Source: Chloroflexota bacterium (GTDB taxonomy: Bacteria > Chloroflexota > Anaerolineae > Anaerolineales > Anaerolineaceae). From it: a stretch of DNA of 64,000 nt. The position numbers and the translations under genes were made by a program. The notes below the pieces were generated by a model, which saw nothing but the letters and a program-made list of their open reading frames with translations, was not told where the DNA came from and ran no database searches. How positions within the stretch are numbered: the stretch's first letter is position 1; every line of letters starts with the position of its first letter. Shown piece after piece: positions 4,925 through 24,412 of this stretch. The stretch lies in NCBI GenBank assembly GCA_004347695.1, contig SLTK01000010.1:1-64000 (forward strand). Reading direction: 5' to 3'.

Positions 4925-6808
4925 TTACAACTCGATTTGACTGCCATTTTGGTTTTCCATCTCCTTGATTTCTTTGGCAACCGCTTCGATGGCTACCCGC
5001 TGCTTGCGGTACAGGTCAGCTTCGGACATGGCCAACCGCATTGCAATCTCGCGAACTTTCTTTCCTTCTAAAAATTTTAACTCGAGAATATTATACAAAA
5101 TCCACTCGCCGGTAAAACGCCGTTCACCCTCAGGTTTTACCCGTTCGATCCCTTCACGCAGGATAGCGCGCAGAGCATTGGACGAATTTCCTTCTTGGGT
5201 TTCAGCCTTGTCCTTGACCACCTGCAGGTTCATCAAAGGACTATCGGTTAATTTTGGCCCGCCCCAGTAATGGGTCAGGGCATCCTTGACCCATTGGGTA
5301 AACTCGCTATTTGCTTCCTGGGCTTCAGCCGTTAATACTTTCGATTGGTCAAAGCGGCCGGCCGCCCGCAGTTGTTGGATGAAAGCTGCCTTGGTGGACA
5401 GCTCGCCCAACGAGTGGAACACCTGCTCCTGCAGACGACGGTCGTTGAGCGCCAGTGCAATCCGTTCGGAAAATGCGTTCAAATCGTCCAACTGCTCTTC
5501 GTCCAGCGCTTCGATCGCGCCCTCTGAGATGCCCAAAATCCCGAGCATACTCACATCGCCATCCACATTTTGGTCATACAAAGGAACCAGGATGTCGCTG
5601 CCCCACTGAAAAAGCTGATAAAAATCGCTGGTGTCCGGGAAAAAGCGAGACAGGTCTGTATTAACCTTTTCCCGGTCAAAGAATGTTTTGCCAACCTTTA
5701 CCGCCAGCTCAAGGCCATCCGGGTTTAACGCGGCAACATACGCGCCTGGCGCCTGAAGCCGGTCGCATAAGCCGGAAAGGATCATTTCGATAAACTGGCG
5801 CAAGTCGTTACGGGTGACTAATCGATCTTCCAGGCCGACCAACACTTCGATTTCGGCCTTGTCATTGCCATAAAACAACCAGCGCTCCAGGTACGGGAAA
5901 ATCAAGGTGACCAGGTACTCGCCAACCAATATCGTGGCGACCATGACGATGGGTACAAAAGTGTTATAAGCCAATCCAAGTGGTTCACCCGCGCGACGGA
6001 CAACCGTGGCAAAGGTCAGCGTAAAGCTGGCGACCACCGGTCCGCGCAAAATCCATTTGAAAAGACGGCTCTTGACCCGCCGGTCTGGCAGCGATACGCC
6101 AAAAAACGCCACCGAATAGGACATGATGATCACCAGGCCGCCCACGAATATATTTGAAACGACTGCCACCAGCCAGAAAATAATCGAATGACGGGCTGCA
6201 AAACCCGAACTGAACAACAAGAAAGGAAACGAACCCAAAGTTGGGGCAATAGCGCCGATCAATAGATAAACCATGCGCCGCTTTCCGGATGCCGTGGCCG
6301 AACGCCGGTATGCCCGGATAAAGTTGTACCAGGACATGACCATCGCCAACAGGTAGAACAGGATGAAGACGTCCGTGAGCCAGGTCGGTTCTAAAAACGG
6401 TGCTGTTTTCTCCGACTGTTCCAAGGGCCCAACCAGCCATCCCAGCGCCAGCGCGACCAGGAAAAACAGCGAAATAAGGTAGAAAAAGCGGATAGCCCAG
6501 CGGCGTTTGCCTTTACTCGGTTTTCCGGTAGTTGCCAGAACCCCATCCGAGAAATGCAAATAGGAGGATGGCAGAAAAACGATGCCTATCCACTGCACCT
6601 GCAACCAAAATTCCAGGCGCGCCGGTGACTCCGCCACACTGGCGAGCGCTTCAGCGGCATAAATGATTACCAGACAAGCCAAAATAATCGAAAATGAACG
6701 AGCGACTCTCACCCGCAGATTGAAGGTCAACGAATATAACAGCAGAGAGAAGGCGGTGATGGCAATGCCTGCCATCAAAATTTGGTTTATCGGTATCAGT
6801 ACGTTCAA
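4925..6808 (-). CDS. Membrane sensor: histidine-kinase-type 7TM N-terminus plus GAF-like region plus C-terminal HTH-like region, no kinase domain
   Basis: N-terminal hydrophobic segments; C-terminal LKFLEGKKVREIAMRLAMSEADLYRKQRVAIEAVAKEI resembles HTH; no HATPase motifs found. Confidence 0.65.
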   Translation of the reverse strand: MNVLIPINQILMAGIAITAFSLLLYSLTFNLRVRVARSFSIILACLVIIYAAEALASVAESPARLEFWLQVQWIGIVFLPSSYLHFSDGVLATTGKPSKGKRRWAIRFFYLISLFFLVALALGWLVGPLEQSEKTAPFLEPTWLTDVFILFYLLAMVMSWYNFIRAYRRSATASGKRRMVYLLIGAIAPTLGSFPFLLFSSGFAARHSIIFWLVAVVSNIFVGGLVIIMSYSVAFFGVSLPDRRVKSRLFKWILRGPVVASFTLTFATVVRRAGEPLGLAYNTFVPIVMVATILVGEYLVTLIFPYLERWLFYGNDKAEIEVLVGLEDRLVTRNDLRQFIEMILSGLCDRLQAPGAYVAALNPDGLELAVKVGKTFFDREKVNTDLSRFFPDTSDFYQLFQWGSDILVPLYDQNVDGDVSMLGILGISEGAIEALDEEQLDDLNAFSERIALALNDRRLQEQVFHSLGELSTKAAFIQQLRAAGRFDQSKVLTAEAQEANSEFTQWVKDALTHYWGGPKLTDSPLMNLQVVKDKAETQEGNSSNALRAILREGIERVKPEGERRFTGEWILYNILELKFLEGKKVREIAMRLAMSEADLYRKQRVAIEAVAKEIKEMENQNGSQIEL

Positions 6809-9232: not shown

Positions 9233-10924
9233 TTGATCAATTTTTTCAAGATAATTCTATCAGCAGCCTACAGCAGCTTTGCTCTGTATTTCCTGCATAC
9301 ATATAAAGATATTTTATCAAGGTTTGTATACATGAAGCGGCACACTCTCCAACCCCCGAATCTAACCACTGCCAAACAGCTTACGTTGGTCCTCCCGGCT
9401 GTTACGATAGGCGGGTTGGTATTTCTTTCTTTGATCGTCAATGGTTTTCGGGTAAATCCATCCACTCAGGCGGGTAGAATCAGCCTGATTTTTGGCGCTG
9501 CCGGTTTGCTATACATGATATTTATTTCCATCTGGGGAATTCCCCTTCTGCGCAAGCAGCCCTTTTTTAGCTGGTCACTTGCAATTGTGAGTGGACTGGG
9601 CGTTGGCGTCGTCGATCTTTTTCAACCAGAATTGATGCCCGGCATACCCCTGCCGTTGTCCATCACCATCGTTGTTATCCTTGCTCTTCTTGCCGGACGT
9701 TGGCCAACCTATTTATTTGCGCTGATGGTGATAATTGCTAATGTTTTGATCTATATATTTGCTTTTACAGGCCAGACGGAGATGTTCATCCTGGAAGCAG
9801 TCCTCATTCCGGCTTTTGCTATCGTGATTACCGAAACCATTATTGGGCTGCGCAATACATTGCTGGTTGAAATGACGCGTCTGCAGACCCTGAATCGAGT
9901 TGCCCGCAGCCTAGCCAGTTCGCTCGAAATGCACCAGGTGGTATCCCTGGTAAGCAGCGCTATTCAGAATGCCTTCGCTGCGGACACATATTATGTCGGT
10001 ATGCTGCAAGGCGAATCTCTTCATATGGAATTGTTTTTCGATGACGGCGAATTCTTTCCAGCTACGGATATCGAAATCAAAGGTACTCTGGCAGGCAGGG
10101 TGGTGGAATCTCGGCAGTCACTTTTAATCCGCAACCTGGTGGCCGAACGCCAGAAACGCGATTTGCCATTCAAAATTGTCGGGAGGCAGCGAGTCAGCAG
10201 TTCATGGATGGGAACACCACTAAAGATGAACGGGTATATTGCCGGGATCATCGGCGTGGCTTCGTATCAAAAAGAAGTGTTCGATGAAGGCGACCTGGAA
10301 TTACTCGAAAATATCGCCCAGCAGGCCGCCCTGGCGCTCGATAATGCCGGACATCATGCGGAAGTTGAAACAAGATCCCAGCAGGACAGCCTTACCGGCG
10401 TGCTCAACCACAATGCTTTCCTGACGCGCTTGGAGCGGCAAGCGCGCGAAGCAGTCGGTTCGAAAAAACCCCTGGCGTTGATCATGCTGGATATCGATCA
10501 TTTCAAACTGTACAACGACCAATTTGGCCACCTGACCGGCGACGAGGTCCTAACCAATCTGTGCCAGGTTATCCGGCGACATGTCAAAAAGGCCGACCTG
10601 GTAGGCCGGTGGGGCGGCGAAGAATTCGTGATCTCGCTGCCCAATGCCAACGGTCCGCAAGCCTTTCATGTAGCTGAACGGATTCGCACGACAGTGGAAA
10701 ATTTGGCAATTAAAGACCGCGTGGGTCAATTGATTCCGGCGCCAACAGTCAGTCAGGGGATCGCATTGCTGGTGGATGAGACTATGGATTTTATCCAGTT
10801 GGTCGATCTGGCAGACCAGCGGCTGTATGTTGCCAAAGACCACGGGGGAAACGGAATCGAGCCCTCGCTGTTCGCGTTGGAAGAAAATCTACAACAACCC
10901 GAAATTCAGGATACTGAAGTCTGA
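9233..10924 (+). CDS. Diguanylate cyclase with membrane region and GAF domain
   Basis: GGEEF active site (VGRWGGEEFVISLPNA); upstream GAF-like region. Start could be further downstream. Confidence 0.9.
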   Translation: MINFFKIILSAAYSSFALYFLHTYKDILSRFVYMKRHTLQPPNLTTAKQLTLVLPAVTIGGLVFLSLIVNGFRVNPSTQAGRISLIFGAAGLLYMIFISIWGIPLLRKQPFFSWSLAIVSGLGVGVVDLFQPELMPGIPLPLSITIVVILALLAGRWPTYLFALMVIIANVLIYIFAFTGQTEMFILEAVLIPAFAIVITETIIGLRNTLLVEMTRLQTLNRVARSLASSLEMHQVVSLVSSAIQNAFAADTYYVGMLQGESLHMELFFDDGEFFPATDIEIKGTLAGRVVESRQSLLIRNLVAERQKRDLPFKIVGRQRVSSSWMGTPLKMNGYIAGIIGVASYQKEVFDEGDLELLENIAQQAALALDNAGHHAEVETRSQQDSLTGVLNHNAFLTRLERQAREAVGSKKPLALIMLDIDHFKLYNDQFGHLTGDEVLTNLCQVIRRHVKKADLVGRWGGEEFVISLPNANGPQAFHVAERIRTTVENLAIKDRVGQLIPAPTVSQGIALLVDETMDFIQLVDLADQRLYVAKDHGGNGIEPSLFALEENLQQPEIQDTEV

Positions 10925-11964
10925 ACCCGGAGAACTTCCTGGAAAGCTTTCAGCGTCCGATCGATACCGCTGTCTCCCACCCAGTAATGCAGTACCATCC
11001 GGAACATGCGCGGGCCGGTCACGCCTACTTTTATGCCGTGGCTGACGAGTCTGGCAGCAACTTCGCTGGCGGTCAACGGCAAACTCTGGTTCAACTGCAC
11101 AAACACCATATTGGACTGCGGTTTGCCGAGTGGGAATTCAATACCTGCGATACCCGCCAGGCCATCTGCTAATCGTTTAGCGCGAGCGTGATCTTGCGGC
11201 AGTCGCTCTATCATCTGTTCCAGGGCGACAATGCCGGCTGCCGCCAGGACGCCCGCCTGCCGCATGCCGCCGCCTAATTGTTTTCGAATGCGCCGCGCAC
11301 TGGCAATAAATTCAGTACTGCCGCACAGCACCGAACCAACGGGGGCGCACAACCCCTTACTCAAACAAAACGTGACTGAATCGGCGGGTGCAGCCAGGTC
11401 GGCTGCTTTCACGCCCAAAGCGGCTGCGGCATTAAAAATTCGCGCTCCGTCCAGATGTAATTTAAGCCCCTTGGAATGCATCAATTCACCCGCTGCCTGC
11501 ATATACGCGGTGGGCAAAACCACCCCACCGCAGCGGTTATGCGTATTTTCCAGAATAAGCAGGCGGGTCACCGGCTGGTGAATATCCCGCCCACGGATGG
11601 CGCCGTGCACTTCGTCCAGGTTGAGCGTGCCATCGGGCTGATTCGGCAGGGTATTCGCAAATACGCCGCCCAATGCTGAAATGCCGCCGGCCTCGAACAG
11701 GTAGGTGTGTCCCAGGTTGCCCATGATGGCTTCTTCGCCGCGTTGGCAGTGCGCCAGCACCGCTGCCAGATTGCCCATCGTCCCGGAGGGTACGAACAGC
11801 CCGGCCGATTTGCCCATTTTTTCTGCTGCCATCGCCTCCAGGCGATTGACAGTTGGGTCTTCCCCCAGGACGTCGTCGCCGACTTCCGCACGCGCCATAG
11901 CCTCGCGCATTGCCGGAGTGGGGTGGCTGACAGTGTCGGAGCGCAAATCAACAATGGATTCCAT
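10906..11964 (-). CDS. ltaE: Low-specificity L-threonine aldolase
   Basis: DLRSDTVSHPTPAMREAMARAEVGDDVLGEDPTVNRLE; HLDGARIFNAAAALGV. 19-bp convergent overlap with the GGDEF gene. Confidence 0.93.
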   Translation of the reverse strand: MESIVDLRSDTVSHPTPAMREAMARAEVGDDVLGEDPTVNRLEAMAAEKMGKSAGLFVPSGTMGNLAAVLAHCQRGEEAIMGNLGHTYLFEAGGISALGGVFANTLPNQPDGTLNLDEVHGAIRGRDIHQPVTRLLILENTHNRCGGVVLPTAYMQAAGELMHSKGLKLHLDGARIFNAAAALGVKAADLAAPADSVTFCLSKGLCAPVGSVLCGSTEFIASARRIRKQLGGGMRQAGVLAAAGIVALEQMIERLPQDHARAKRLADGLAGIAGIEFPLGKPQSNMVFVQLNQSLPLTASEVAARLVSHGIKVGVTGPRMFRMVLHYWVGDSGIDRTLKAFQEVLRVQTSVS

Positions 11965-11991: not shown

Positions 11992-12915
11992 TTAGCGGTG
12001 GCGCAGATCTTCGAGGACTCGACTCAATTCCGGGGGTAATGGGGCTACAAAAGTGCGCGCAGAGTCCTCGCCAGGTAGTTTAATGGTCAGGCGGGCTGCG
12101 TGCAAGAAGTGCCGCTCAAGGGGTAAGGTTGACTTTCGATGCCCATAAACCAGGTCGCCGACGATTGGCGTACCAAGGAATGCCAGATGCAGGCGAATTT
12201 GATGCGTCCTTCCGGTCAGCGGATGAGCCTCCAGTAAGGTATGGGCGGGAAACGTTTCCAGCGTCTGATACTCGGTGATCGATTCGCGTCCACGGTCATG
12301 GGAAACGATGGCCATACGCTTGCGGTGTGACGGGTCGCGGGCAATGGCCGCTTCGATGCGGCCTTCCGGGGTCGGGGGCAGCCCGTCCACCAGCGCCAGG
12401 TAAATTTTCTTTACGCTGCGCAGGCGGAATTGGTCTTGCAGCCAGCGGTGCGTTGCGTCATTCTTAGCAATCAGGATCAATCCCGAGGTATCTTTGTCCA
12501 GCCGGTGGACGATCCCTGGCCGCTGCTCGCCGCCCACTCCCTCCAGGTCGGGTGCATGCGCCAGAGCCGCATGCACCAGCGTGCCGCTTGCATGTCCTAT
12601 GGAGGGATGCACCACCATACCGGCTGGTTTATTGATCACCATCAGGTCAGCATTTTCAAACACAACGTCCAGCGGAATGGACTCTGGCTGGAGGGTGGTT
12701 GGAACGGACGGCGGGACTTCCACGCGCACCTGCTGGCCAGCTTCGACCTGATAACCGGCTTTACCAACGACAATTTCGCCAACCGTAACCATGCCATCTT
12801 TGATCAATGCCTGCAGACGCGAGCGGGAAAAATCCGGCATGCGGGCAACCAGAATTTTATCCAATCGCTCTGCGCCAGGGCCGGGCTGAACAAACTCCAC
12901 CACCTGACGGGTCAT
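11992..12915 (-). CDS. RluA-family pseudouridine synthase
   Basis: S4 domain plus HRLDKDTSGLILIAKN. Confidence 0.93.
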   Translation of the reverse strand: MTRQVVEFVQPGPGAERLDKILVARMPDFSRSRLQALIKDGMVTVGEIVVGKAGYQVEAGQQVRVEVPPSVPTTLQPESIPLDVVFENADLMVINKPAGMVVHPSIGHASGTLVHAALAHAPDLEGVGGEQRPGIVHRLDKDTSGLILIAKNDATHRWLQDQFRLRSVKKIYLALVDGLPPTPEGRIEAAIARDPSHRKRMAIVSHDRGRESITEYQTLETFPAHTLLEAHPLTGRTHQIRLHLAFLGTPIVGDLVYGHRKSTLPLERHFLHAARLTIKLPGEDSARTFVAPLPPELSRVLEDLRHR

Positions 12916-13460
12916 GGAAGCTCGTGAAACTCCGAAAACAGTTCGGCAGGGTTAGCGTTCGCCTGCGCGGTCTTTTCGCGTTCGGCTTTCTCGCGCCTCT
13001 CCTGCAGCCAGACTCCTAACAGCAGGACGGCTGTACCAACCGTTATGGCAGAATCGGCCACATTAAAGACCGCGAACGACCCGATCGATATAAAATCGGT
13101 GACATGACCAATGGTGATGCGGTCGATCAGATTGCCAACGGCGCCGCCCAATTGCATGCTGAGCGCCAGCCGCAATGACCAATCCTGACTGGGAATGCGT
13201 GGAAAATAAACGATAATTCCGACAACGATAACAATTGGAAGAAGAATAAAAATGATGCCGCCTTCCTGGAACATGCCAAAAGCGACACCTTTGTTGTACC
13301 AGTGCAGGATGCGCGCATAAGGCGCCAGGTCTTGCCAGGGCATCCAACTCTCCCCCAAAGCCAAATTTTGCCTTACGAGCGCCTTGGTATACTGGTCGAG
13401 CGCGATAATAAGCCCGGGAATGATGAGTAAAAAGAAGAAATACCGAAGAAATTTTTTCAA
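12912..13460 (-). CDS. lspA: Lipoprotein signal peptidase (signal peptidase II)
   Basis: DQYTKALV; GAVGNLIDRITIGHVTDFI; FNVADSAITVG catalytic Asp motifs. Confidence 0.95.
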   Translation of the reverse strand: MKKFLRYFFFLLIIPGLIIALDQYTKALVRQNLALGESWMPWQDLAPYARILHWYNKGVAFGMFQEGGIIFILLPIVIVVGIIVYFPRIPSQDWSLRLALSMQLGGAVGNLIDRITIGHVTDFISIGSFAVFNVADSAITVGTAVLLLGVWLQERREKAEREKTAQANANPAELFSEFHELP

Positions 13461-13540: not shown

Positions 13541-14476
13541 TTACCCGGGCAAATGGGAGTCATCCGGCGACCAGCAGGCCAGGTAATCCAACTGATGGAC
13601 AACCAGGAACAGGCTGGCGTCATTGATCTGACGGCGGCGGGCGGTGAGCCAACCTTGAAATGCAGCGGGTTCCAACTCAGCGTGCCCGGTAAGCGTTTCT
13701 TCGAAAAAATGCAGCAGGTGGTTCAAAAAATAGGCTTCATCCGCCCGATAACTGCCATTAACCGGATGCACCACCCAATCCGATGCCCCGGCAGCCAGCA
13801 CTTTCCAACCTGCATCGCGGAGTTGATGGTATAAACGCCTCCCAGTCCGGCTGCCCCCGGTAGCCTGTCCACCCGCCTGCCGGTCGTCCATTGACCGGTG
13901 GTACAGTTCGATGATTTTTTCGTCCAAAGCCGGATCTAACTGCGGCTCGAACACGGTCACACCGTCGAAATTGATCGTAAAGTAGCCCAATCCTCCTGGT
14001 TGCATCATTTTCCCCCAGTGCGGCAGGAGCGATGCTGGATTTACCAAATCCAAAAATGCGTTCGCGACCAGCAGGTCATAACCCGGCTCGACCGGATTTG
14101 CCGCCGCCTCGCTTACCTCTCTGGCTTGGAAGATCGCACGCAGTTGGATTCCTCTCCCGGATAGTTCAAAACCGTCTGGAACGGGAATACAAGTCAATCC
14201 TTGGCCATCAGCCCACGCCGGTAAATTTTGCAGCGCAGCTTGAATACTCTCTGCGTCTGAATCAATTCCCAGGTACATCCCACCTTTGAGCGCGCCCCAC
14301 TCGACCAAACGGTGCAGCATCGTACCTGTGCCGGCACCAACCTCCAGTACCCGCAGTGTTTGAGTCGAAGCGCGATTTTTGATCAATTCAGCCATAGTCA
14401 GCCAGACGGAACCGTTCAAGGCGCGGTCATCGACCGTGCGTTTGGCATTCAGGTAGTGTTGAAACGTAAAGTCCAC
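13541..14476 (-). CDS. Class I SAM-dependent methyltransferase
   Basis: LRVLEVGAGTGTMLHRLVE motif I. Confidence 0.85.
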   Translation of the reverse strand: MDFTFQHYLNAKRTVDDRALNGSVWLTMAELIKNRASTQTLRVLEVGAGTGTMLHRLVEWGALKGGMYLGIDSDAESIQAALQNLPAWADGQGLTCIPVPDGFELSGRGIQLRAIFQAREVSEAAANPVEPGYDLLVANAFLDLVNPASLLPHWGKMMQPGGLGYFTINFDGVTVFEPQLDPALDEKIIELYHRSMDDRQAGGQATGGSRTGRRLYHQLRDAGWKVLAAGASDWVVHPVNGSYRADEAYFLNHLLHFFEETLTGHAELEPAAFQGWLTARRRQINDASLFLVVHQLDYLACWSPDDSHLPG

Positions 14477-14489
14477 TGTGTACCTCGCA

Positions 14490-15584
14490 TCAAAGCCGGG
14501 CGAGCATAAATTGACGAATGTTTTCCGTAGTTTGCCGCCAGGTCGGAAATTCTGCGTAGCGTTGGCGGGCAGCCAGGCTCATGGACTGGAGAATTTCCGG
14601 GTTTCGGCTGATGGTTTCGATTACCGCCGCCAGAACGGCTTCATCTCCAGGTGGGACCAACCAGCCGTTAATGCCGTGTTGAATGATCTCCCCCGAGCCG
14701 CCGGCATTACCAGCGATCGGTACCACGCCCCAACGCATGGCTTCCAGATAGACAATGCCAAAACCCTCGAACGTGGATGGCACAGCCAGCAGTTGGCTGG
14801 TACGGTATGCTTGCACGAGGTCGCCATCCTTTAACGCCCCCAGGAATTCCACCTGGTTTTCCAGATCGGCAGAAGAGACGAGTTTCCGGCAACTACGCGC
14901 GTAAGCCGGTTCCATATCGCCGCGGCCAACCACCCGCAAACGCCAGTTTTCAGAACGCACCCTTGCCAGCGCTGCAAGCAAAGAATGCAGCCCTTTCCGC
15001 TCGATCAAATTGCCGACGAACAGGATTTCCACCCTCTTACGTTGACTATCTGACTGAATTATCTGGCTATGCGCAATAGATTTGAAGCTAGAAGCGGGTT
15101 CTTCCAGCGCATCCCCGCCGGGTGTTGCCACCGTGAAGGGTTTTTGGTGCGGCGCAAGGGAATTCACTGCCAGCCGGCTGGAATGGCTGTTAAATACATA
15201 TCCATCCAGCGATTCCAGGTATTGACGTTCGATGGCGCGGTAGAGCGCTCGCAGCAGCCGGTTGTGTGGTTCGCTGCAACGCAGGTGGTGGACGATGCCG
15301 ATAAACGGCGCCCTCACCGCTTGCCGCAGCCAGCGGTTGAGCGCAAACAACGATGGGTGATTCAATTCATCCTGCAACAACAGGTCAACTTCTAACTCTG
15401 CCAGCCGGTTTCGGATCGATCGTGAATAATTCTGACCAAGCGCCTGTCCGTAACTCACTACCGGCAGCCCGACCACTTCGACGGTTTCCCCGGAAGACCG
15501 CAAGTGTTCAACCAGCATACGGTCATACAAATAACCGCCGGAAAGCGTATCCAGGCTGCCGTAGATGATCAGCCCGACCCGCAC
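14490..15584 (-). CDS. Glycosyltransferase family 4-type (GT-B)
   Basis: FVGNLIERKGLHSLLAAL; AVPSTFEGFGIVYLEAMRWGVVPIAGNAGGSGEII. Confidence 0.9.
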   Translation of the reverse strand: MRVGLIIYGSLDTLSGGYLYDRMLVEHLRSSGETVEVVGLPVVSYGQALGQNYSRSIRNRLAELEVDLLLQDELNHPSLFALNRWLRQAVRAPFIGIVHHLRCSEPHNRLLRALYRAIERQYLESLDGYVFNSHSSRLAVNSLAPHQKPFTVATPGGDALEEPASSFKSIAHSQIIQSDSQRKRVEILFVGNLIERKGLHSLLAALARVRSENWRLRVVGRGDMEPAYARSCRKLVSSADLENQVEFLGALKDGDLVQAYRTSQLLAVPSTFEGFGIVYLEAMRWGVVPIAGNAGGSGEIIQHGINGWLVPPGDEAVLAAVIETISRNPEILQSMSLAARQRYAEFPTWRQTTENIRQFMLARL

Positions 15585-15974
15585 TTAGCGCTCCAGCTCG
15601 TACCCGGCCCAGGCGGTTTCACTTTCCCACAGCCGCACTGTCACCCGCTGGATATTGCTCGCATCAATTTTGGCAGAGAGCGCCTCGCATAACCAACGCG
15701 CAAAATATTCCAGCGAGGGGTTTACGCCCGTGAAACCAGGTAAGTCATTCAAGGTTTTGTCCCGCGCCAGCTCGATTATTTGATCCAGCACATTTTCGAC
15801 AGCCACAATATCGACCAGGTATTGGTGATGATCCAAATCGTAACCCCCGAGTTCAAGATCAAGGCGGTATGGATGGCTATGCAGCTCGTTTTCCACACCC
15901 CAGTCACCGCCAACCAGGTAATGCTGTGCTGTGAAAGTCTTTTGAACGGAAACATGATACATATTACCCTCCAA
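15585..15974 (-). CDS. 6-pyruvoyl-tetrahydropterin synthase/QueD family protein with Glu at the catalytic Cys position
   Basis: FTAQH and ENELHSHPY zinc-ligand arrangement; the usual C-x3-H-G-H is E-x3-H-S-H. Confidence 0.85.
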   Translation of the reverse strand: MEGNMYHVSVQKTFTAQHYLVGGDWGVENELHSHPYRLDLELGGYDLDHHQYLVDIVAVENVLDQIIELARDKTLNDLPGFTGVNPSLEYFARWLCEALSAKIDASNIQRVTVRLWESETAWAGYELER

Positions 15975-15999
15975 CTGGCTTGGATACTATAATCATAGC

Positions 16000-16893
16000 A
16001 TGCAGCCGGACGAATATCGCAAAAGCGAACAAGCACTGATCCGCATCAACATCGATGATATGTTGATTTCGCTCGGCTGGCAGAATCATTCCTTTGCACG
16101 CAGTTTGCTGGGTCCAATCTTTCGCTACCCGGCGCGGCAGTTTGCCCGCCAGGTGCTGGATTACGATCGGGGAGTACAGGACCTGGGACTGGCTGGCGGA
16201 GCCCGCCGCTTGCTGGCTGCTTACGTCAAAGGCTTTGAAGTCCACGGCGCGGAAAACCTGCCCCTCAGCGGACCGCTGTTGATTCTTTCCAACCATCCCG
16301 GCATGGTCGATACGGTCGCTTTGTTTGCCGCACTTCCGCGCCCTGACCTGCGGGTACTGGCGGCTGAACGGCCGTTCCTGGCTGCGCTGCCGGCGACCCG
16401 TCCTTACTTGTTTTTTGTCCCCGAAAATGATGGGCGCAGCGAGGTAATCCGCCAGACCGCGCGCTACCTGCGTGCCGGCGGCGCGGTGCTCACCTTCCCC
16501 GGGGGGCACATCGATCCTGACCCGCGCGTCATGCCGGGTGCCGCGGCTGCGCTGGAGAACTGGTCGCCCAGTACGGGCATCTTTGTCCGTCTGGCGCCAG
16601 ATCTGCAGGTTTTGCCGGTCATCGTCTCGGGGGTGATTGCAGCACCTTCGCTGCGGCATCCATTGACCAGATTGCGCCGGCAGTCCGATGATCGCCAACG
16701 CCTGGCAGCCACGCTGCAAATTCTGGCGAAAGTATTTCGGCCCAACCTTTGGCCGGTCCACGTTCAGGTGGATATTCTGCCGCCAATTCCAGGTCGCGAG
16801 CTGATGGCAGACCCCGACCCGCAGGCCATTACCCGGGCAGCTATCGAACGCATTCGGCCGTACTATCAGCGTTCTGATTTCGTAGTCCCTTAA
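16000..16893 (+). CDS. Lysophospholipid acyltransferase (PlsC-like)
   Basis: ILSNHPGMVDTVALF (NHxxxxD-like) and FPGGHIDPDP. Confidence 0.85.
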   Translation: MQPDEYRKSEQALIRINIDDMLISLGWQNHSFARSLLGPIFRYPARQFARQVLDYDRGVQDLGLAGGARRLLAAYVKGFEVHGAENLPLSGPLLILSNHPGMVDTVALFAALPRPDLRVLAAERPFLAALPATRPYLFFVPENDGRSEVIRQTARYLRAGGAVLTFPGGHIDPDPRVMPGAAAALENWSPSTGIFVRLAPDLQVLPVIVSGVIAAPSLRHPLTRLRRQSDDRQRLAATLQILAKVFRPNLWPVHVQVDILPPIPGRELMADPDPQAITRAAIERIRPYYQRSDFVVP

Positions 16894-17921
16894 TACGTCA
16901 GAACGATTTGAAACGATTCTTCCGGCCGCAACACCAGTTGCTGGTAAGCCTGGTCAGCCTGGGTAAAAGGGAACCGGTGAGTAATCCACTCGCCTGGGTG
17001 CAAGTCGTGAAGCGCCTGGAGCGCCAACGCCAACCGCCGCTCCTTGGTCCAGCGTCCGCTGATTTCCGGCGCGAGACTACTTACCTGGCTGCTGACCAGT
17101 TGGATGCGGTTGCGATGAAAAGCGCCGCCCAGATCGAGCACCGACTTCTTTCGTCCGTACCAGGAGCCTATCACCACGCGGCCGTTGTAACCCGCGGCAT
17201 TGATGGCCAGGTTAAGCGCATCCGGCGAGCCGCTGATCTCGTACACCAGGTCTGCCCCTCGGCTGGCAAATCCATGCGCCGCCAACGCGTTGTGCAAATC
17301 CGAAAGAATTGCCGGATCCTCAGCATCCAATACCTGCACATTCCCTAACCTGGAAGCAATTTCCCGGCGCAAGGGATAACGATCCAGCGCAAAGAGATGG
17401 GTCAGCGGAAAGCGGGCCAACTGAGCCAGGGTCAACATGCCAACCACCCCCAGGCCCAAAACCAGCACGGATTCGCCGATCAGCGGCGCGCCATCGTGAG
17501 TGAAGTTGATGGCAGTCTCCATATTGGCAAGAAAAGCAGCATCCTCATCCGTCAGGTCGGCGGGCAACGGAATCAAGGCGTCCAGGCTGGCAATAAAATG
17601 ACTTTCATGCGGATTAAAGGCAAACACACGGCGTCCTTGCCATTCATTGTCCACCCCCGGGCCAAGCATGGTAACCTGCCCGACGCAGGCATATCCATAC
17701 TTGAAGGGGTAACGAAAATTACCGCGCAGACTGTTGATGTTGGCGTCAAGCTGCATGTTTTCCGGCGCCAGACCTTGAAACACGAGCGATTCAGTGCCGG
17801 AACTCACTGCGCTAAGCGTTGTTTGTACCAGCACTTCGCGCACGCCTGGCGGCGCCAACATCTCGGAGCGAATTGTTACCCGGCCGGGTGCGGTGAAATA
17901 AATCGATTGCCCGGAAATCAT
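16890..17921 (-). CDS. Zinc-binding/MDR-type alcohol dehydrogenase
   Basis: VLVLGLGVVGMLTLAQLARF Rossmann motif; ATG at 17921 chosen over the ORF start at 17960. Confidence 0.85.
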   Translation of the reverse strand: MISGQSIYFTAPGRVTIRSEMLAPPGVREVLVQTTLSAVSSGTESLVFQGLAPENMQLDANINSLRGNFRYPFKYGYACVGQVTMLGPGVDNEWQGRRVFAFNPHESHFIASLDALIPLPADLTDEDAAFLANMETAINFTHDGAPLIGESVLVLGLGVVGMLTLAQLARFPLTHLFALDRYPLRREIASRLGNVQVLDAEDPAILSDLHNALAAHGFASRGADLVYEISGSPDALNLAINAAGYNGRVVIGSWYGRKKSVLDLGGAFHRNRIQLVSSQVSSLAPEISGRWTKERRLALALQALHDLHPGEWITHRFPFTQADQAYQQLVLRPEESFQIVLTY

Positions 17922-18679
17922 AATGATACTCTCCCGGAAACAACCAGGTCCGGCCCGCACTGTTGATAATCAGGATCGATGAGATATGGCAGTTCACGTG
18001 GCGATCCTGCCTCACGGTCGAGCGCCGGCAGCCCACCTGCCCAGCGCGGTGAAATGGTGATGACGGCCCAGTCCACCAAACCCGCCTGCAGAAATGATGA
18101 AATGACCCGAGACCCTCCTTCGACCATTATTGAAGCAATTCCGAGGCTTTTTAAGCATTCGAGCATCCGGGGCAGGGACAAACCCCCATCAGGTCCCGGT
18201 TCTACCTGCAGCAGGCGTGCTCCGGCTGCGGCCAAAGCTGCGTCCCGGGCTTTTTCGGAAGCCGGTGCGCAAACGATCCAGGGATGCAGGTCAGAACGTC
18301 GGATAAGCCGGCTATCCAGCGGAGTGCGCAGGCGTGAATCTAAAATGATGGGCTGCGGATCTTTTCCCTCCACCAGACGCACATTCAACACTGGATCATC
18401 TGCCAGAACGGTGCCGCTCCCAACCAGGATGGCATCATGCCAGGCGCGCAACCGGTGGGTCATTTGCATGGTTTCGGGCGAACTGATTTCGAGGGGCTTG
18501 CCAGGCTCAGCCGCGATGCAGCCGTCCAGCGTCTGGGCATAGCTCAATGTTACCCACGGCCAGGGACGCATGGAGACCTCAGTTTTAGCCGCATCGAGCC
18601 GTGCAAAGGTCGTGGCGGTATCAATGATGTCCATGGCCATTGGAAGAGAGCGATTCGACTGAAAAGAACAGGTTTGCAT
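17918..18679 (-). CDS. RibD C-terminal/dihydrofolate-reductase-like reductase
   Basis: RPWPWVTLSYAQTLDGCIA; WHDAILVGSGTVLADDPVLNVR; IMVEGGSRVISSFL. Confidence 0.92.
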   Translation of the reverse strand: MQTCSFQSNRSLPMAMDIIDTATTFARLDAAKTEVSMRPWPWVTLSYAQTLDGCIAAEPGKPLEISSPETMQMTHRLRAWHDAILVGSGTVLADDPVLNVRLVEGKDPQPIILDSRLRTPLDSRLIRRSDLHPWIVCAPASEKARDAALAAAGARLLQVEPGPDGGLSLPRMLECLKSLGIASIMVEGGSRVISSFLQAGLVDWAVITISPRWAGGLPALDREAGSPRELPYLIDPDYQQCGPDLVVSGRVSL

Positions 18680-19322
18680 CCAGCAAGTGGTTCATCCGCC
18701 GCGCCTTGGTAAGCAGATAAGCAGCATTATCTTCGGTCACGGTTGCCACCAGCGGAACGCGCCCCGTCACCTGCACACCAAGCGATTCGAGCCCGCTAAT
18801 CTTGTCCGGATTATTGGTCAGCAGGAACACCGACTGAATCCCTAAATCCTGCAGGATGGCTGCTGCCATACTGTATTCGCGCTCGTCCTCAGAATGTCCC
18901 AGCGCCAGATTGGCCTCGACAGTGTCATAACCGCTGTCCTGCAGATTATAAGCGCGCAGCTTTTCCAGCAGGCCGATCCCACGACCTTCCTGACGCAAAT
19001 AAACGATCACGCCCATTGGCTGCCCGGCGACATAATTCATCGCCAATTGAAGCTGCTCGCCACAGTCGCAGCGCCGTGAGCCAAGCACATCGCCGGTAAA
19101 ACATTCTGAATGGATACGTACCGGTACATGATTTTGTTGATCGACGCGCCCATGGACCAACGCCAGATGCTCTTTATCGTCTCGATTATTGGCGTACAGG
19201 CACAATTGAAATTCACCCGCGTCGGTGGGAACACGCGCCTGGACAATGCGTTTGATTTTTAGGGTTTCGACCATGAATAATCCTTTTTGCACTCGATCAG
19301 CACAGCAATGATGATGCCACAA
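18621..19322 (-). CDS. ribA: GTP cyclohydrolase II
   Basis: HSECFTGDVLGSRRCDCGEQL zinc motif; YLRQEGRGIGLLEKLRAYNLQD. A start at MVETLKIKR is likelier. Confidence 0.93.
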   Translation of the reverse strand: MWHHHCCADRVQKGLFMVETLKIKRIVQARVPTDAGEFQLCLYANNRDDKEHLALVHGRVDQQNHVPVRIHSECFTGDVLGSRRCDCGEQLQLAMNYVAGQPMGVIVYLRQEGRGIGLLEKLRAYNLQDSGYDTVEANLALGHSEDEREYSMAAAILQDLGIQSVFLLTNNPDKISGLESLGVQVTGRVPLVATVTEDNAAYLLTKARRMNHLLDANLFFSVESLSSNGHGHH

Positions 19323-19325
19323 CGC

Positions 19326-19658
19326 TTAAGGGCGTTGAAAAAGAAGCAAAACGATTAACAGCAATTCGACAGCGGCAGTAAAAATACCCAGCGGGGTCTG
19401 TTCCCCGATAGCCAGCCATAAAATCAAAGTCAAAGCGGTATAACCGATCAAGGCAAAGCGCACCAACCGTTTGCGGTCCTGCAGAAAAGGGATGGGTAAC
19501 TGCAAGAAATAAGCGGCGGTCAAACCAAGGTAGCCCAGACCGTTGAGAATGAAGATCACGTCCGGGAATAAGAGCGACAGGTGAATGCCAGCAGCAATCA
19601 GCGCCAGAAGAATGATCACTGCTTGCATCACACCAATCCGAATCCGGGTTGTTTCCAT
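19326..19658 (-). CDS. Small multi-TM hypothetical protein
   Basis: METTRIRIGVMQAVIILLALIAAG...; the upstream part of the ORF overlaps the next gene. Confidence 0.6.
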   Translation of the reverse strand: METTRIRIGVMQAVIILLALIAAGIHLSLLFPDVIFILNGLGYLGLTAAYFLQLPIPFLQDRKRLVRFALIGYTALTLILWLAIGEQTPLGIFTAAVELLLIVLLLFQRP

Positions 19659-19668
19659 TGTTTCCTCC

Positions 19669-20805
19669 TTATTCCTCAAGACCAATGATGTTTTTTTCAA
19701 AAGAGTTGATCGTTGATTCAGTTCCCGCTGACTGGGCTGCGCGCGCGTCCGGTCTTCGAAGTTCGTTGCCTGCCAGGACCAGGCCAGGCAATCCAAAAAC
19801 CAAATCGCGAACGCGCATAACCAGACTGGCGCTCAAACCTACAGCGGCAGCCGCGCCAATGGAACTGAAGGCCAGTACCTGGCCTGCCTCCAATGCACCC
19901 AGGCCGCCCGGCATGGGGGTCAAAAAAGCCAGTTGTGAAGCAAGAAATGCAGTCATAAGCTGTACCAGGTTTATGGACTGGCCAAGGAAGCGCAGCATCA
20001 GCGCGTATTCTACGAACATGGCCAGCCAACCGCCAGCCGAGATCGCTGCTGTGACCAAAATCACTGCCGGTCTGGTGCGCAATAAGGTGGAAATTTGCTC
20101 CTCAGATTGACCTATCAGCTTCGCTGCGCGCAGCAACCAGGCTGGGATTTTAGAGTGAGCCATCAACGCAGTGATCGGGAATTTTCCACGGCTCAGTGCC
20201 AATAAATACAGCAGCGGCAGGGCTAACAAAGCGGCCGCAACAACCCACCAAACGCCGCCCGGCCAATTACCAGTCGCGCCGCTGGCAAGGATCAACAGAC
20301 TGCCAACCATCAAAAAAGTAAAATTGGTCAACAGTTCGAAGACTTTGTCCAGAAACACACTGGACACTGCGGCTGGCAAAGTGACAGACGGGTTCCGGGA
20401 AACCAGAAGCACCTGCAGCGGTTCACCGCCGACTTGAGGGCCGACCGTAAAATAAGAGACGCCAAAGCCGATCAGGTGGTAACCTACGGCACGGGAAAAA
20501 GGGATGCGCCCGCCCATTACCCGCAGGATAAACCACCAGCGCAGGCTGAAAATGGCCAGCACCCCGACGTTCACTGCAGCCAGCGCCAGCAGTTGCCAGC
20601 CGCGCAAAGATGCAAGGGTATCCACGATTTGTGGAAGCGGAACTTCCCGCAACGCCCACCACAAGGCAGGGATGACCAGCAGCCAGAAGAGCCAGGCCAA
20701 ACGGAATTTTACAAAACCTGGACGCGCCCGGCTTACAATGCCCGGGTCGTTTGGCAGCTTCGAAGCGTGCTCCTCTTCTTCTGATCGTTCGTGCGTTCGT
20801 CTCAT
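19669..20805 (-). CDS. Lysylphosphatidylglycerol synthase TM/UPF0104-like flippase-domain membrane protein
   Basis: PMPGGLGALEAGQVLAF and QVGGEPLQVLLVSR motifs typical of the family. Confidence 0.85.
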   Translation of the reverse strand: MRRTHERSEEEEHASKLPNDPGIVSRARPGFVKFRLAWLFWLLVIPALWWALREVPLPQIVDTLASLRGWQLLALAAVNVGVLAIFSLRWWFILRVMGGRIPFSRAVGYHLIGFGVSYFTVGPQVGGEPLQVLLVSRNPSVTLPAAVSSVFLDKVFELLTNFTFLMVGSLLILASGATGNWPGGVWWVVAAALLALPLLYLLALSRGKFPITALMAHSKIPAWLLRAAKLIGQSEEQISTLLRTRPAVILVTAAISAGGWLAMFVEYALMLRFLGQSINLVQLMTAFLASQLAFLTPMPGGLGALEAGQVLAFSSIGAAAAVGLSASLVMRVRDLVFGLPGLVLAGNELRRPDARAAQSAGTESTINSFEKNIIGLEE

Positions 20806-20941: not shown

Positions 20942-23900
20942 TCAGCGAGCGACTTCCACGCCGACGGTCAACTGCTCGCCGTCGAATTCAGCCTGGCTGG
21001 CTGCCGCGCTATCCGGCGGCGCCGATGCAACCAGGTCAACGGTCAGGGTCTCCGCCATGATGTAATCCTTGAAATCGGCTACGGCTTCTGTCAAACCCGG
21101 AGTAGCTTGATAGTACAACCGAATGCGATCGGAGATTTGCAGATCGGCCGTTTTGCGCAAATCCTGCACGCGGCGCACAAACTCGCGCGCCAGACCCTCA
21201 CGCACCAACGCCGGGGTCAGCTCAGTGATCAACGCCGCCAGGTAAGCGCCCTCGGATGCCACCGCGTAGCCTTCGCGCGCCTGCACGCGAACTTCGACTT
21301 CTTCCGGTAGCACTGAAACCGTCTCGCCATCCACCTGCAGCTCGACCGGCTGACCGTCGAGCAGGCGGCGTGCGGCCGGTTCTGGATCGATCGCCAGCAG
21401 CGTCTTACGGATGGCCGGGAAGCGGCTGCCATATTTTTGGCCCAACTGCTTGGGTAACGGATTCAGGCTATAAGCTACCGCTTCACCTGCGGTATCCAAC
21501 GCCCGCACGTGTTTAACGTTCAGCTCATCTTCCAACAGATCGGCATAGACTTGCACCACGCGGGCTTCTTCAGCGTTGCCGACCGAGAAAGCCGCTTCCG
21601 CCAACGGCTGGCGCACCTTGCGGTTGGCCTTATTCCGTGCGGCGTGTCCCACCGATGCCAGCTTCATCACCAGCGCCATGTCGCGGTTGAGTTTATCATC
21701 CACCAGCGCCGCGTCAAAGACCGGCCAGGCTGCCAGATGTACCGATTCAGGCGCGCTCGGGTTCATTTGCACCACCAGATTCTGGTATAACTCCTCCGCC
21801 ATGAACGGCATACTGGGCGCCAGCAGTTTACTGACAGTCACCAGTGCTTCATAGAGCGTCGCATAGGCAGCCTGCTTATCTCCGTCCGATTCAGACTTCC
21901 AGAAGCGGCGACGCGAGCGGCGCAGATACCAGTTGGACAGTTGATCGACGAAGACTTCAACCGGGCGCGTGGCGCCCAGCACATCATAATTTTCCATCGC
22001 GGTTGTCACGTCCCGCACCAGCGCATGCAAGGTGGAACGCAACCACTGGTCAAGGTCGCTGTATTGCGGCTGCTGTCCTTCACCGGGTTGCCAGCCGTCC
22101 AGGTTGGCATAGGTGACGAAGAAAGAATAGGTATTCCACAGGGTCAATGTAAAGTTACGCAGAACCTCACTCACCAGGTCGCTGGAGAACCGACGTTCCT
22201 GTCCCGGAGGGCCGGCAGTGTAGAGATACCAGCGCATGGCATCCGCGCCGTTTGAATTCAGGACTTGCCAGGGATCGGCAACATTGCCGCGCGACTTGGA
22301 CATCTTCTGTGCATTGCCGTCCAGGATCAGTCCCAGGCAGACCACATTCTTGAAACTGACCTGGTCATTGAGCAGGGTGCTGATGGCATGCAAGGAATAG
22401 AACCAGCCGCGCGTTTGATCGACTGCCTCGCAGATGTAATCCGCCGGATATTGCTGGTGAAACTGCTCGACATTTTCGAAGGGGTAATGCCACTGGGCAT
22501 AAGGCATCGAGCCGGAGTCGAACCAGACATCGATCAATTCGGGCACGCGTTTCATTTTGCCGCTGCATTCCGGGCAGCTCAACGTAACTTCATCGACGTA
22601 TGGCCGGTGCAGATCGAGCCCGGTCAGGTCGCGCCCCGCCAATGTGGACAGTTCAGCTACCGAACCGATAGCATGTTGGTGATGGCAGTCAACGCACTCC
22701 CAGACTGGCAGCGGAGTGCCCCAGTAACGTTCACGCCCAAGCGCCCAGTCGACATTGTTTGCCAGCCAGTTGCCAAAGCGCCCGGTTTTGATGTGTCCGG
22801 GATACCAGTTGATGGTGTTGTTGAGTTCCACCATGCGGTCTTTGAACTGGCTGGTGCGGATGTACCAGGTTGGCCGGGCATAATACAGCAACGGGGTGCC
22901 GCAGCGCCAGCAGAACGGATAGGTGTGGGTATAGTTCTCGCTGCGAAAAAGCAGCCCGCGTGTATGCAATTCATCGATGATCAACGGATCGGCTTTTTTG
23001 ACGAAAATACCTGCCCACGGCCGGACGGCCGGGATGAACGTTCCGTCATCTGCCACCGTCATCAGCAGCGGCAGATCGTGTTCCAACCCAACCGCCATAT
23101 CTTCGGCGCCAAACGCCGGGGCGATATGCACAAAACCGGTCCCGTCTTCCGTAGTCACATAATCGGCTAAAACCACATAGTACGCCTGCTTTTGCACCGG
23201 CAGGAAGGTGTAGAGCGGTTGATACCTTTTACCTTTAAGGGCCTTGCCTTTCAGCCGGTTGACCACTTTAACGGCTTCACCGTGGAAGACTTTTTCCACC
23301 AGGGCTTCCGCCAGGATCAGCTTTTCCACGCCGCCTTCCGGCAATGGATGCTCGACTACCACATAGTCGACATCCGGGTGCGCTGCAACGGCAACGTTGC
23401 CGGGCAGCGTCCAGGGCGTCGTTGTCCAGACCAATAACGAGGTGCCGGGTTCATCCACCAGCGGCAAACGCACAAAGACGGACGGATCCACCGTTTCTTC
23501 ATAGCCCTGGGCCACCTCGTGATCCGAAAGCGGCGTTCCGCAGCGCGGGCAGTACGGCACGACCTTAAACCCCTGGTAAAGCAGGTCCTTTTCCCAGAAG
23601 TTTTTCAGGATCGACCAGACCGATTCGATATATTCGTTCTTGTAGGTGACGTAAGCGGTTTCCAGATCGACCCAGTAACCAATGCGGTCGGTTAGTCGTT
23701 CCCACTCCTGGATATAGGCAAACGCCGACTCGCGGCATAATGCATTGAATTTATCGATGCCATAGGCTTCGATGTCTTGTTTAACTTTGAATCCCAGCTT
23801 TTTCTCGACCTCGATCTCAACCGGCAGTCCGTGGGTATCCCACCCGCCGCGGCGACTGACATGGAAGCCCTGCATGGTTTTATACCGCGGGAAGATGTCC

Positions 23901-24094
23901 TTGAAGACGCGCGCCAGGACATGATGCACGCCCGGTTTGCCATTAGCGGTTGGAGGACCTTCATAAAAGATATACTCCGGGCCGCCTTTACGCTGATCCA
24001 TGGTCTTGTGGAAGACGTCGTGTGACTTCCAAAACCGCTGAACCGCTTCTTCTACCAGGGTAACGTTGAATTTAGATGAAACAGGTCGGAACAT
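20942..24094 (-). CDS. ileS: Isoleucyl-tRNA synthetase
   Basis: YEGPPTANGKPGVHHVLARVFKD (HIGH region) and KMSKSRGN (KMSKS). Start set at MFRPVSSKFN because the ORF 5' extension is T-box sequence. Confidence 0.97.
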   Translation of the reverse strand: MFRPVSSKFNVTLVEEAVQRFWKSHDVFHKTMDQRKGGPEYIFYEGPPTANGKPGVHHVLARVFKDIFPRYKTMQGFHVSRRGGWDTHGLPVEIEVEKKLGFKVKQDIEAYGIDKFNALCRESAFAYIQEWERLTDRIGYWVDLETAYVTYKNEYIESVWSILKNFWEKDLLYQGFKVVPYCPRCGTPLSDHEVAQGYEETVDPSVFVRLPLVDEPGTSLLVWTTTPWTLPGNVAVAAHPDVDYVVVEHPLPEGGVEKLILAEALVEKVFHGEAVKVVNRLKGKALKGKRYQPLYTFLPVQKQAYYVVLADYVTTEDGTGFVHIAPAFGAEDMAVGLEHDLPLLMTVADDGTFIPAVRPWAGIFVKKADPLIIDELHTRGLLFRSENYTHTYPFCWRCGTPLLYYARPTWYIRTSQFKDRMVELNNTINWYPGHIKTGRFGNWLANNVDWALGRERYWGTPLPVWECVDCHHQHAIGSVAELSTLAGRDLTGLDLHRPYVDEVTLSCPECSGKMKRVPELIDVWFDSGSMPYAQWHYPFENVEQFHQQYPADYICEAVDQTRGWFYSLHAISTLLNDQVSFKNVVCLGLILDGNAQKMSKSRGNVADPWQVLNSNGADAMRWYLYTAGPPGQERRFSSDLVSEVLRNFTLTLWNTYSFFVTYANLDGWQPGEGQQPQYSDLDQWLRSTLHALVRDVTTAMENYDVLGATRPVEVFVDQLSNWYLRRSRRRFWKSESDGDKQAAYATLYEALVTVSKLLAPSMPFMAEELYQNLVVQMNPSAPESVHLAAWPVFDAALVDDKLNRDMALVMKLASVGHAARNKANRKVRQPLAEAAFSVGNAEEARVVQVYADLLEDELNVKHVRALDTAGEAVAYSLNPLPKQLGQKYGSRFPAIRKTLLAIDPEPAARRLLDGQPVELQVDGETVSVLPEEVEVRVQAREGYAVASEGAYLAALITELTPALVREGLAREFVRRVQDLRKTADLQISDRIRLYYQATPGLTEAVADFKDYIMAETLTVDLVASAPPDSAAASQAEFDGEQLTVGVEVAR

Positions 24095-24138
24095 GCAGGC
24101 TCCTAGAAAAAGGTTGTCGTAATCCGTTATTAATATCA

Positions 24139-24412
24139 AAACCCCTTCGTCCACCAGGGACGAGAGGGGTTCTCGCGGTACCACCCTGTTTCCTGCCAGT
24201 CGGCAGGCTCTTTGTCAGATACTTCCGGATCGGTCGGTCATACCTGCGCCGGGAATAACGGTCGGCAGCACCGGCTCCCCTACTGACGAAGGATTACTTC
24301 GGGTTCAGTTCGCAGCTCCGGAAGGATTTTCCGCTCCAGTTTTTGCCCCGGCTCACACCAATTCCGGGTTCGCTGCCAAACAACCAGAACGTACTCTTTT
24401 CCATCATCGCTA
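24139..24412 (-). promoter_or_regulatory. T-box leader upstream of ileS
   Basis: Minus strand has AGGGTGGTACCGCGAGAACCCCTCTCGTCCC, the conserved T-box/antiterminator sequence, with competing terminator CCCCTCTCGTCC..GGACGAAGGGGTTTTGAT. The 5' limit is approximate. Confidence 0.92.

Follow-up and report, generated by a model that had tools for sequence, protein, structure and literature searches.

A gene cluster on a 64,000-nucleotide stretch of a Chloroflexota bacterium (family Anaerolineaceae; assembly GCA_004347695.1, contig SLTK01000010.1, positions 1 to 64,000; here called the window) very probably encodes a dedicated biosynthetic pathway whose product is neither riboflavin nor F420. The cluster unites RibA (GTP cyclohydrolase II) and a RibD_C reductase with an MDR-family dehydrogenase, a PTPS-fold protein, a GT4 glycosyltransferase and an S-adenosylmethionine (SAM) methyltransferase. 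RibA and RibD_C most likely start a pathway to a sugar-decorated pterin-like molecule; the first enzymes of vitamin B2 synthesis are thereby retained by organisms that are apparently unable to make vitamin B2. A full model, in which the first two riboflavin reactions are diverted toward a decorated pterin, is tentative and falls a little short of an even prospect. The cluster is common to Chloroflexota, haloarchaea, rhizobia, Methylosinus and Streptomyces, which points to a widespread small molecule whose structure is not known.

Conserved gene order and missing riboflavin genes

Genes were called from open reading frames (ORFs) and Pfam/NCBIfam profile searches, and all seven genes named in a first-pass annotation of the locus are present where it placed them. 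Six lie on the minus strand: RibA (18621-19322; PF00925, 226 bits; likely start ~19274), a stand-alone RibD_C reductase without a deaminase domain (17918-18679; PF01872, 144 bits), the MDR dehydrogenase, which lacks the catalytic zinc Cys (16890-17960; PF00107, distant BchC), a PTPS-fold protein of a WGxEN/HSH subfamily (15585-15974; PF01242; conserved start Met at 15962), the GT4 glycosyltransferase (14490-15584; PF00534) and a class I SAM methyltransferase (13541-14476; PF08242). The seventh, a PlsC-like acyltransferase (16000-16893; PF01553), sits on the plus strand between the MDR and PTPS genes.

A GTDB genome scan with a PTPS alignment yielded 512 relatives. Near the PTPS gene at the best 80 loci, many of them on short contigs, GT4 occurs 76 times, the methyltransferase 63, MDR 62, RibD_C 54 and RibA 46. 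A stricter set, after removal of duplicates, comprises 60 PTPS loci that have 5 kb or more of sequence on either side. RibA, RibD_C, MDR, PTPS and GT4 are all present at 36 of these 60, and the order RibA-RibD_C-MDR-PTPS-GT4-methyltransferase on a single strand is kept at 40 of the 42 loci that hold all six genes. This grouping is far beyond chance. The first-pass annotation had proposed a check of neighbourhood conservation, and the neighbourhood is strongly conserved. Anaerolinea thermolimosa and Bellilinea caldifistulae, the latter with a genome of the same genus as the window, are among the carriers. Of 249 genomes of the class, roughly 45 have a member of the MDR clade (~46-55% identity), set in neighbourhoods that again show the cluster. 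Four genomes encode RibA and RibD_C as a single fused reading frame. Genes, conservation, fusion and the absences described below are direct observations.

The window's assembly (3.3 Mb, 14 contigs, 91% complete) contains a single RibA. At 242 bits it scores above the GTP cyclohydrolase II threshold of NCBIfam TIGR00505 (206 bits), and its zinc-Cys motif CFTGDVLGSRRCDCG, with three Cys, is intact. Profile searches of this assembly returned no match to RibB (PF00926) or to the lumazine synthase RibH (PF00885). The RibD_C protein matches PF01872 only and has no RibD deaminase domain; the search did not extend to a free-standing deaminase elsewhere. CofH/FO synthase (TIGR03551) gave no hit above cut-off here or in nearly all relatives. 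RibH is likewise missing from every genome in a set of 33, most of which carry the cluster and some of which are single contigs at 99% completeness, so assembly incompleteness does not explain the missing riboflavin genes. Of 41 relatives, the four that have RibB are also the only four that have RibH, and all four carry a RibB-RibA fusion. Among these 41 relatives, RibA is present in all 18 that are PTPS-positive and in 3 of the 23 that are PTPS-negative (Fisher p ~7e-9 from counts of relatives that are not independent). Genomes that have the MDR-PTPS-GT4-methyltransferase quartet without adjacent RibA and RibD_C encode both elsewhere.

The non-riboflavin assignment made from the first reading of the locus is supported by the missing RibB and RibH and by the strongly conserved neighbourhood. 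That reading had allowed that these would be the ordinary riboflavin genes if the genome held no other RibA or RibD copy and the remaining members did not co-occur. RibA is indeed single, but RibB and RibH are missing with it, so the genes are not ordinary riboflavin genes, and the co-occurrence is strongly conserved.

Other RibA and RibD_C copies occur in these genomes. In one related family (nine loci in eight genomes), a separate RibD_C-RibA pair, with RibD_C first and of another subtype, is found at a distance from the quartet; two of its carriers, G111 and G164, have no MDR match and no RibH. One relative without RibH, RibB or a PTPS gene has a RibA at positions 5548-6033 of its contig C13 (G282). 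The window's assembly holds six further, weaker RibD_C/DHFR-like proteins on contigs C3 and C11. The RibA residue at E. coli position Tyr105, which in work on SCO6655 reportedly decides formyl retention, was considered as a marker of cluster copies; it is Tyr in the window and Leu, Met or Phe in other cluster and rib-operon copies, and is not diagnostic.

A proposed route from GTP to a decorated pterin

Across lineages the quartet stays the same and the first enzyme of the proposed pathway varies: Chloroflexota and rhizobia have RibA, haloarchaea the archaeal GTP cyclohydrolase IIa, and Streptomyces RibA with a creatininase. Haloarchaea carry the quartet, and cyclohydrolase IIa adjoins MDR at two further haloarchaeal loci, the first with MDR and no PTPS match, the second with MDR, PTPS and methyltransferase. 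In Streptomyces fungicidicus the quartet is accompanied by RibA, a creatininase and a CDP-alcohol phosphatidyltransferase; an unannotated flippase-like gene (10686-11537 of the plasmid locus) lies between methyltransferase and creatininase. Agrobacterium, Rhizobium and Peteryoungia add RibA, RibD_C, a CDP-alcohol phosphatidyltransferase and a flippase to the quartet. Their clusters, on large plasmids, also include cytochrome b561 and a sulfatase-annotated protein in conserved order. Methylosinus, Thiodictyon, Desulfomonile and a deltaproteobacterial metagenome-assembled genome have the quartet plus RibD_C, and Smithella has RibD_C with no methyltransferase found. A Cohnella isolate keeps RibD_C-MDR-PTPS-RibA alone, without GT4 or methyltransferase (its RibA-like ORF matches PF00925 only partially), which suggests that these four are the core and that the remaining genes are tailoring. 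The MDR tree separates a Proteobacteria/Streptomyces half from a Chloroflexota/haloarchaea/Desulfomonile/Cohnella half, each with 100/100 support, and the PTPS sequences split in the same way (FGPAQ...HGA against GxExxxHSH).

In the proposed pathway, RibA would convert GTP to 2,5-diamino-6-(5-phosphoribosylamino)pyrimidinone, and the deaminase-free RibD_C, which among solved structures comes closest to RibD and 2,5-diamino-6-ribosylaminopyrimidinone-phosphate reductases, would reduce this to the 6-ribitylamino compound, an intermediate of the archaeal/fungal order. The branch substrate is probably 2,5-diamino-6-ribitylaminopyrimidinone 5'-phosphate. In bacterial riboflavin synthesis deamination comes ahead of reduction, and therefore no 2,5-diamino-6-ribitylamino compound arises. 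In archaeal riboflavin synthesis the reductase precedes the deaminase (Graupner 2002, cited in PMC8305020). RibD_C is linked at 11 of 13 bacterial outgroup loci and at none of six haloarchaeal loci (Fisher p 0.001). This distribution fits the branch substrate, since the haloarchaeal riboflavin route would already yield the intermediate, on the assumption that the outgroup bacteria and haloarchaea synthesize riboflavin. Chloroflexota without riboflavin synthesis would then need both RibA and RibD_C.

All reactions after RibD_C, and the product, we infer. The MDR protein appears NAD-type in the alignment (Rossmann motif and an Asp after strand beta2) and reads SAISAGTE in place of a CGxCGTD-type zinc-Cys motif; among its relatives with solved structures are many polyol dehydrogenases, such as those for sorbitol, xylitol, arabinitol and galactitol-1-phosphate. 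Such an enzyme could oxidize the ribityl 2'-hydroxyl (C2') to a ketone of the same 1-deoxyribulosylamine type as the Amadori shift product of GTP cyclohydrolase I. Ring closure of the ketone with the 5-amino group would give 7,8-dihydroneopterin 3'-phosphate without GTP cyclohydrolase I. That MDR oxidation forms the pterin ring in this way is possible, although the balance tips slightly against it.

The PTPS-fold protein would then bind the pterin through Glu89 and cleave or rearrange its side chain. Its AlphaFold model (pLDDT 92.7) is closest to SCO6650 (PDB 3d7j; TMq 0.88), with PTPS and QueD next. His18 and the pterin-anchor Glu89 are kept in every copy aligned; Glu28 takes the position of the QueD Cys, and R/K-D/E stands in for the Asp-His dyad. 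Five copies from one related family have Asn at zinc-site His32 (NSH). Archaeal PTPS-III may use a monophosphate (PMC5041015), and by analogy a monophosphate substrate is plausible for the window protein. GT4 would add a sugar and the methyltransferase a methyl group. UDP-glucose:tetrahydrobiopterin glucosyltransferase is among the GT4 matches in the PDB, as a remote match and not the top one. The methyltransferase has a conserved N-terminal motif in the alignment (YLxAKxxVDDRALN), and its fold search returned generic methyltransferases only. The earlier suggestion of a GTP-derived intermediate that is reduced, dehydrogenated and glycosylated or methylated is supported, with the chemistry presumptive; a flavin is unlikely and a pterin fits better.

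In a last step, the PlsC-like acyltransferase, or elsewhere a CDP-alcohol phosphatidyltransferase, could act with a flippase-like protein to tie the product to the membrane; such a linkage is possible but rather doubtful. The first-pass annotation covered the core genes and stopped short of two conserved context genes on the minus strand: a small hydrophobic ORF adjoining RibA (19326-19796; no Pfam match; homologues at 17 of 60 loci) and an LPG_synthase_TM flippase-like membrane protein (19669-20805; PF03706, 123 bits). Minus-strand transcription thus runs flippase-like gene, small ORF, RibA, RibD_C, MDR, PTPS, GT4, methyltransferase. Because the plus-strand acyltransferase separates PTPS from MDR, PTPS-GT4-methyltransferase probably has its own promoter, divergent from the acyltransferase. 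In the set of 60 loci the acyltransferase occurs at 13, the CDP-alcohol phosphatidyltransferase at 17 and a flippase-like gene at 23, including all those 17. The first two never share a locus (0/13; p 0.012, found after many features had been viewed) and may replace one another in lipid linkage of the product. Signal peptidase II (12912-13460) and isoleucyl-tRNA synthetase (20942-24184) flank the cluster, and they reappear at several related loci (LspA 13/80, IleS 9/80).

Taken as a whole, a second dihydropterin route that dispenses with GTP cyclohydrolase I, achieves the Amadori step by reduction followed by oxidation, and feeds a membrane-linked, glycosylated and methylated pterin in bacteria and archaea is somewhat unlikely.

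Alternative explanations

The most conventional explanation is that ordinary riboflavin genes lie beside unrelated enzymes by chance. The RibA copy is the sole one in the assembly, as that would require, but RibB and RibH are absent there and from nearly every relative, the RibD_C protein lacks a deaminase domain and the six-gene order is kept at 40 of 42 loci. Without RibB or RibH this explanation was rejected as scarcely credible, unless unrelated replacements of both exist. A supply of FO/F420 precursor is also highly improbable. RibA and RibD_C do lead toward 5-amino-6-ribitylaminouracil, and an FO/F420 role for PTPS-IV has been suggested as an unpublished result (PMC5041015); however, CofH is lacking, which led to rejection, the RibD deaminase domain is absent, and the conserved GT4, methyltransferase and MDR proteins are not F420 enzymes. 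The cluster could instead bypass part of folate synthesis by supplying 6-hydroxymethyl-dihydropterin in the manner of PTPS-III. Glu at the catalytic position and HPPK in most relatives agree with such a bypass, but the genome already has FolE, the Glu is displaced by one position from the PTPS-III motif (ExxxH against ExxHGH), and GT4 and the methyltransferase would be left without explanation. Because the cluster does not go together with FolE loss, the bypass was rejected as very improbable. With FolE and two HPPK genes elsewhere in the window's genome, folate synthesis there looks ordinary and separate from the cluster.

Two further explanations carry more weight. The cluster may serve two substrates, with PTPS acting on FolE-derived dihydroneopterin triphosphate, RibA and RibD_C making a separate ribityl-pyrimidine, and MDR serving as a late side-chain oxidoreductase. 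The PTPS family normally takes dihydroneopterin triphosphate, FolE occurs in 32 of 41 relatives, and MDR adjoins PTPS and not always RibD_C. This arrangement is nevertheless improbable, since FolE lies outside the cluster, the PTPS motif is unlike those of known triphosphate-processing subfamilies, and PF01227 has no match in three cluster-positive genomes (FolE2 was not searched for). Alternatively, the product may not be a pterin, and MDR and PTPS may make another heterocycle or a glycosidic pyrimidine from the ribityl-pyrimidine. Toxoflavin synthesis likewise uses RibA/RibD-type enzymes, and the PTPS copies are without the QueD Asp-His dyad, those of SCO6650 type also without Glu28 and His34. 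We consider this fairly unlikely because the pterin-anchor Glu89 is invariant and oxidation at C2' would give a pterin by simple ring closure.

Several observations weigh against the diversion of riboflavin reactions to a decorated pterin. FolE presence does not track the cluster among relatives, and with FolE in the window's genome a second dihydroneopterin route looks redundant. In G111, G164 and G282, RibA occurs although RibH and the one cluster gene searched for are both missing. No RibD_C is linked within the stretch read at the Neorhizobium and Streptomyces outgroup loci, and no cyclohydrolase is linked in Smithella, Desulfomonile or most haloarchaeal loci, where borrowing from riboflavin synthesis is assumed. 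Proteobacteria/Streptomyces PTPS copies are without His34 and Glu28, so the PTPS reaction may differ among lineages. The acyltransferase and CDP-alcohol genes are confined to 13 and 17 of the 60 loci.

Relation to known systems

The riboflavin pathway shares the RibA and RibD reductase families with the cluster, and presumably their reactions, whereas the window has no RibB, RibH or deaminase domain and its partners are MDR, PTPS, GT4 and methyltransferase. Cyanobacterial pterin glycosides (cyanopterin; BGluT), in which a GT4-family enzyme attaches sugar to a pterin-type core, represent the proposed product class. They begin with GTP cyclohydrolase I, unlike the proposed route, and the GT4 match is remote; we know of no lipid-linked partners of the cyanobacterial pathway.

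A full-text literature search found no paper on the whole cluster, and no description of the window's subfamily, of the quartet, of the riboflavin loss or of the occurrence in two domains turned up in the literature searched. The locus had been called a possible uncharacterised neighbourhood; it is not wholly new, as part of its gene association had been reported without a function. A 2017 paper describes a PTPS-IV cluster of 561 sequences whose neighbours include PF00925 and PF01872, as at the window locus, and gives no product (PMC5445326; PF00925, labelled FolE2 there, is GTP cyclohydrolase II in Pfam). The published motifs are CxxxHGH for PTPS-I/QueD, CxxxxxHGH for PTPS-II and ExxHGH for PTPS-III. 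The window protein has neither Cys motif but ExxxHSH, with Glu four and not three residues before His, and HSH instead of HGH. PTPS-III (6-hydroxymethyl-dihydropterin synthase) has the PTPS fold in common with it and also replaces Cys by Glu near the zinc site, but the Asp-His dyad of the window protein is replaced by R/K-D/E. Public records name these copies 6-carboxytetrahydropterin synthase; annotation as RibA, RibD or that synthase would not prove riboflavin or queuosine synthesis.

The closest known system is PTPS-IV, represented by SCO6650 of Streptomyces coelicolor, for which we know of no reaction although its structure dates from 2008. It shares the fold, the PF00925/PF01872 neighbours and the MDR, GT4, methyltransferase and CDP-alcohol partners. 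The window protein has WGVEN instead of the FGPAQ of Streptomyces, Agrobacterium and Methylosinus copies, HSH, and Glu at the catalytic position, and its MDR partner belongs to the separate, well-supported tree half of haloarchaeal and deltaproteobacterial copies; judged by sequence, it is a subfamily distinct from PTPS-IV/SCO6650. The proposed pathway would provide the orphan PTPS-IV family with a substrate that can be tested.

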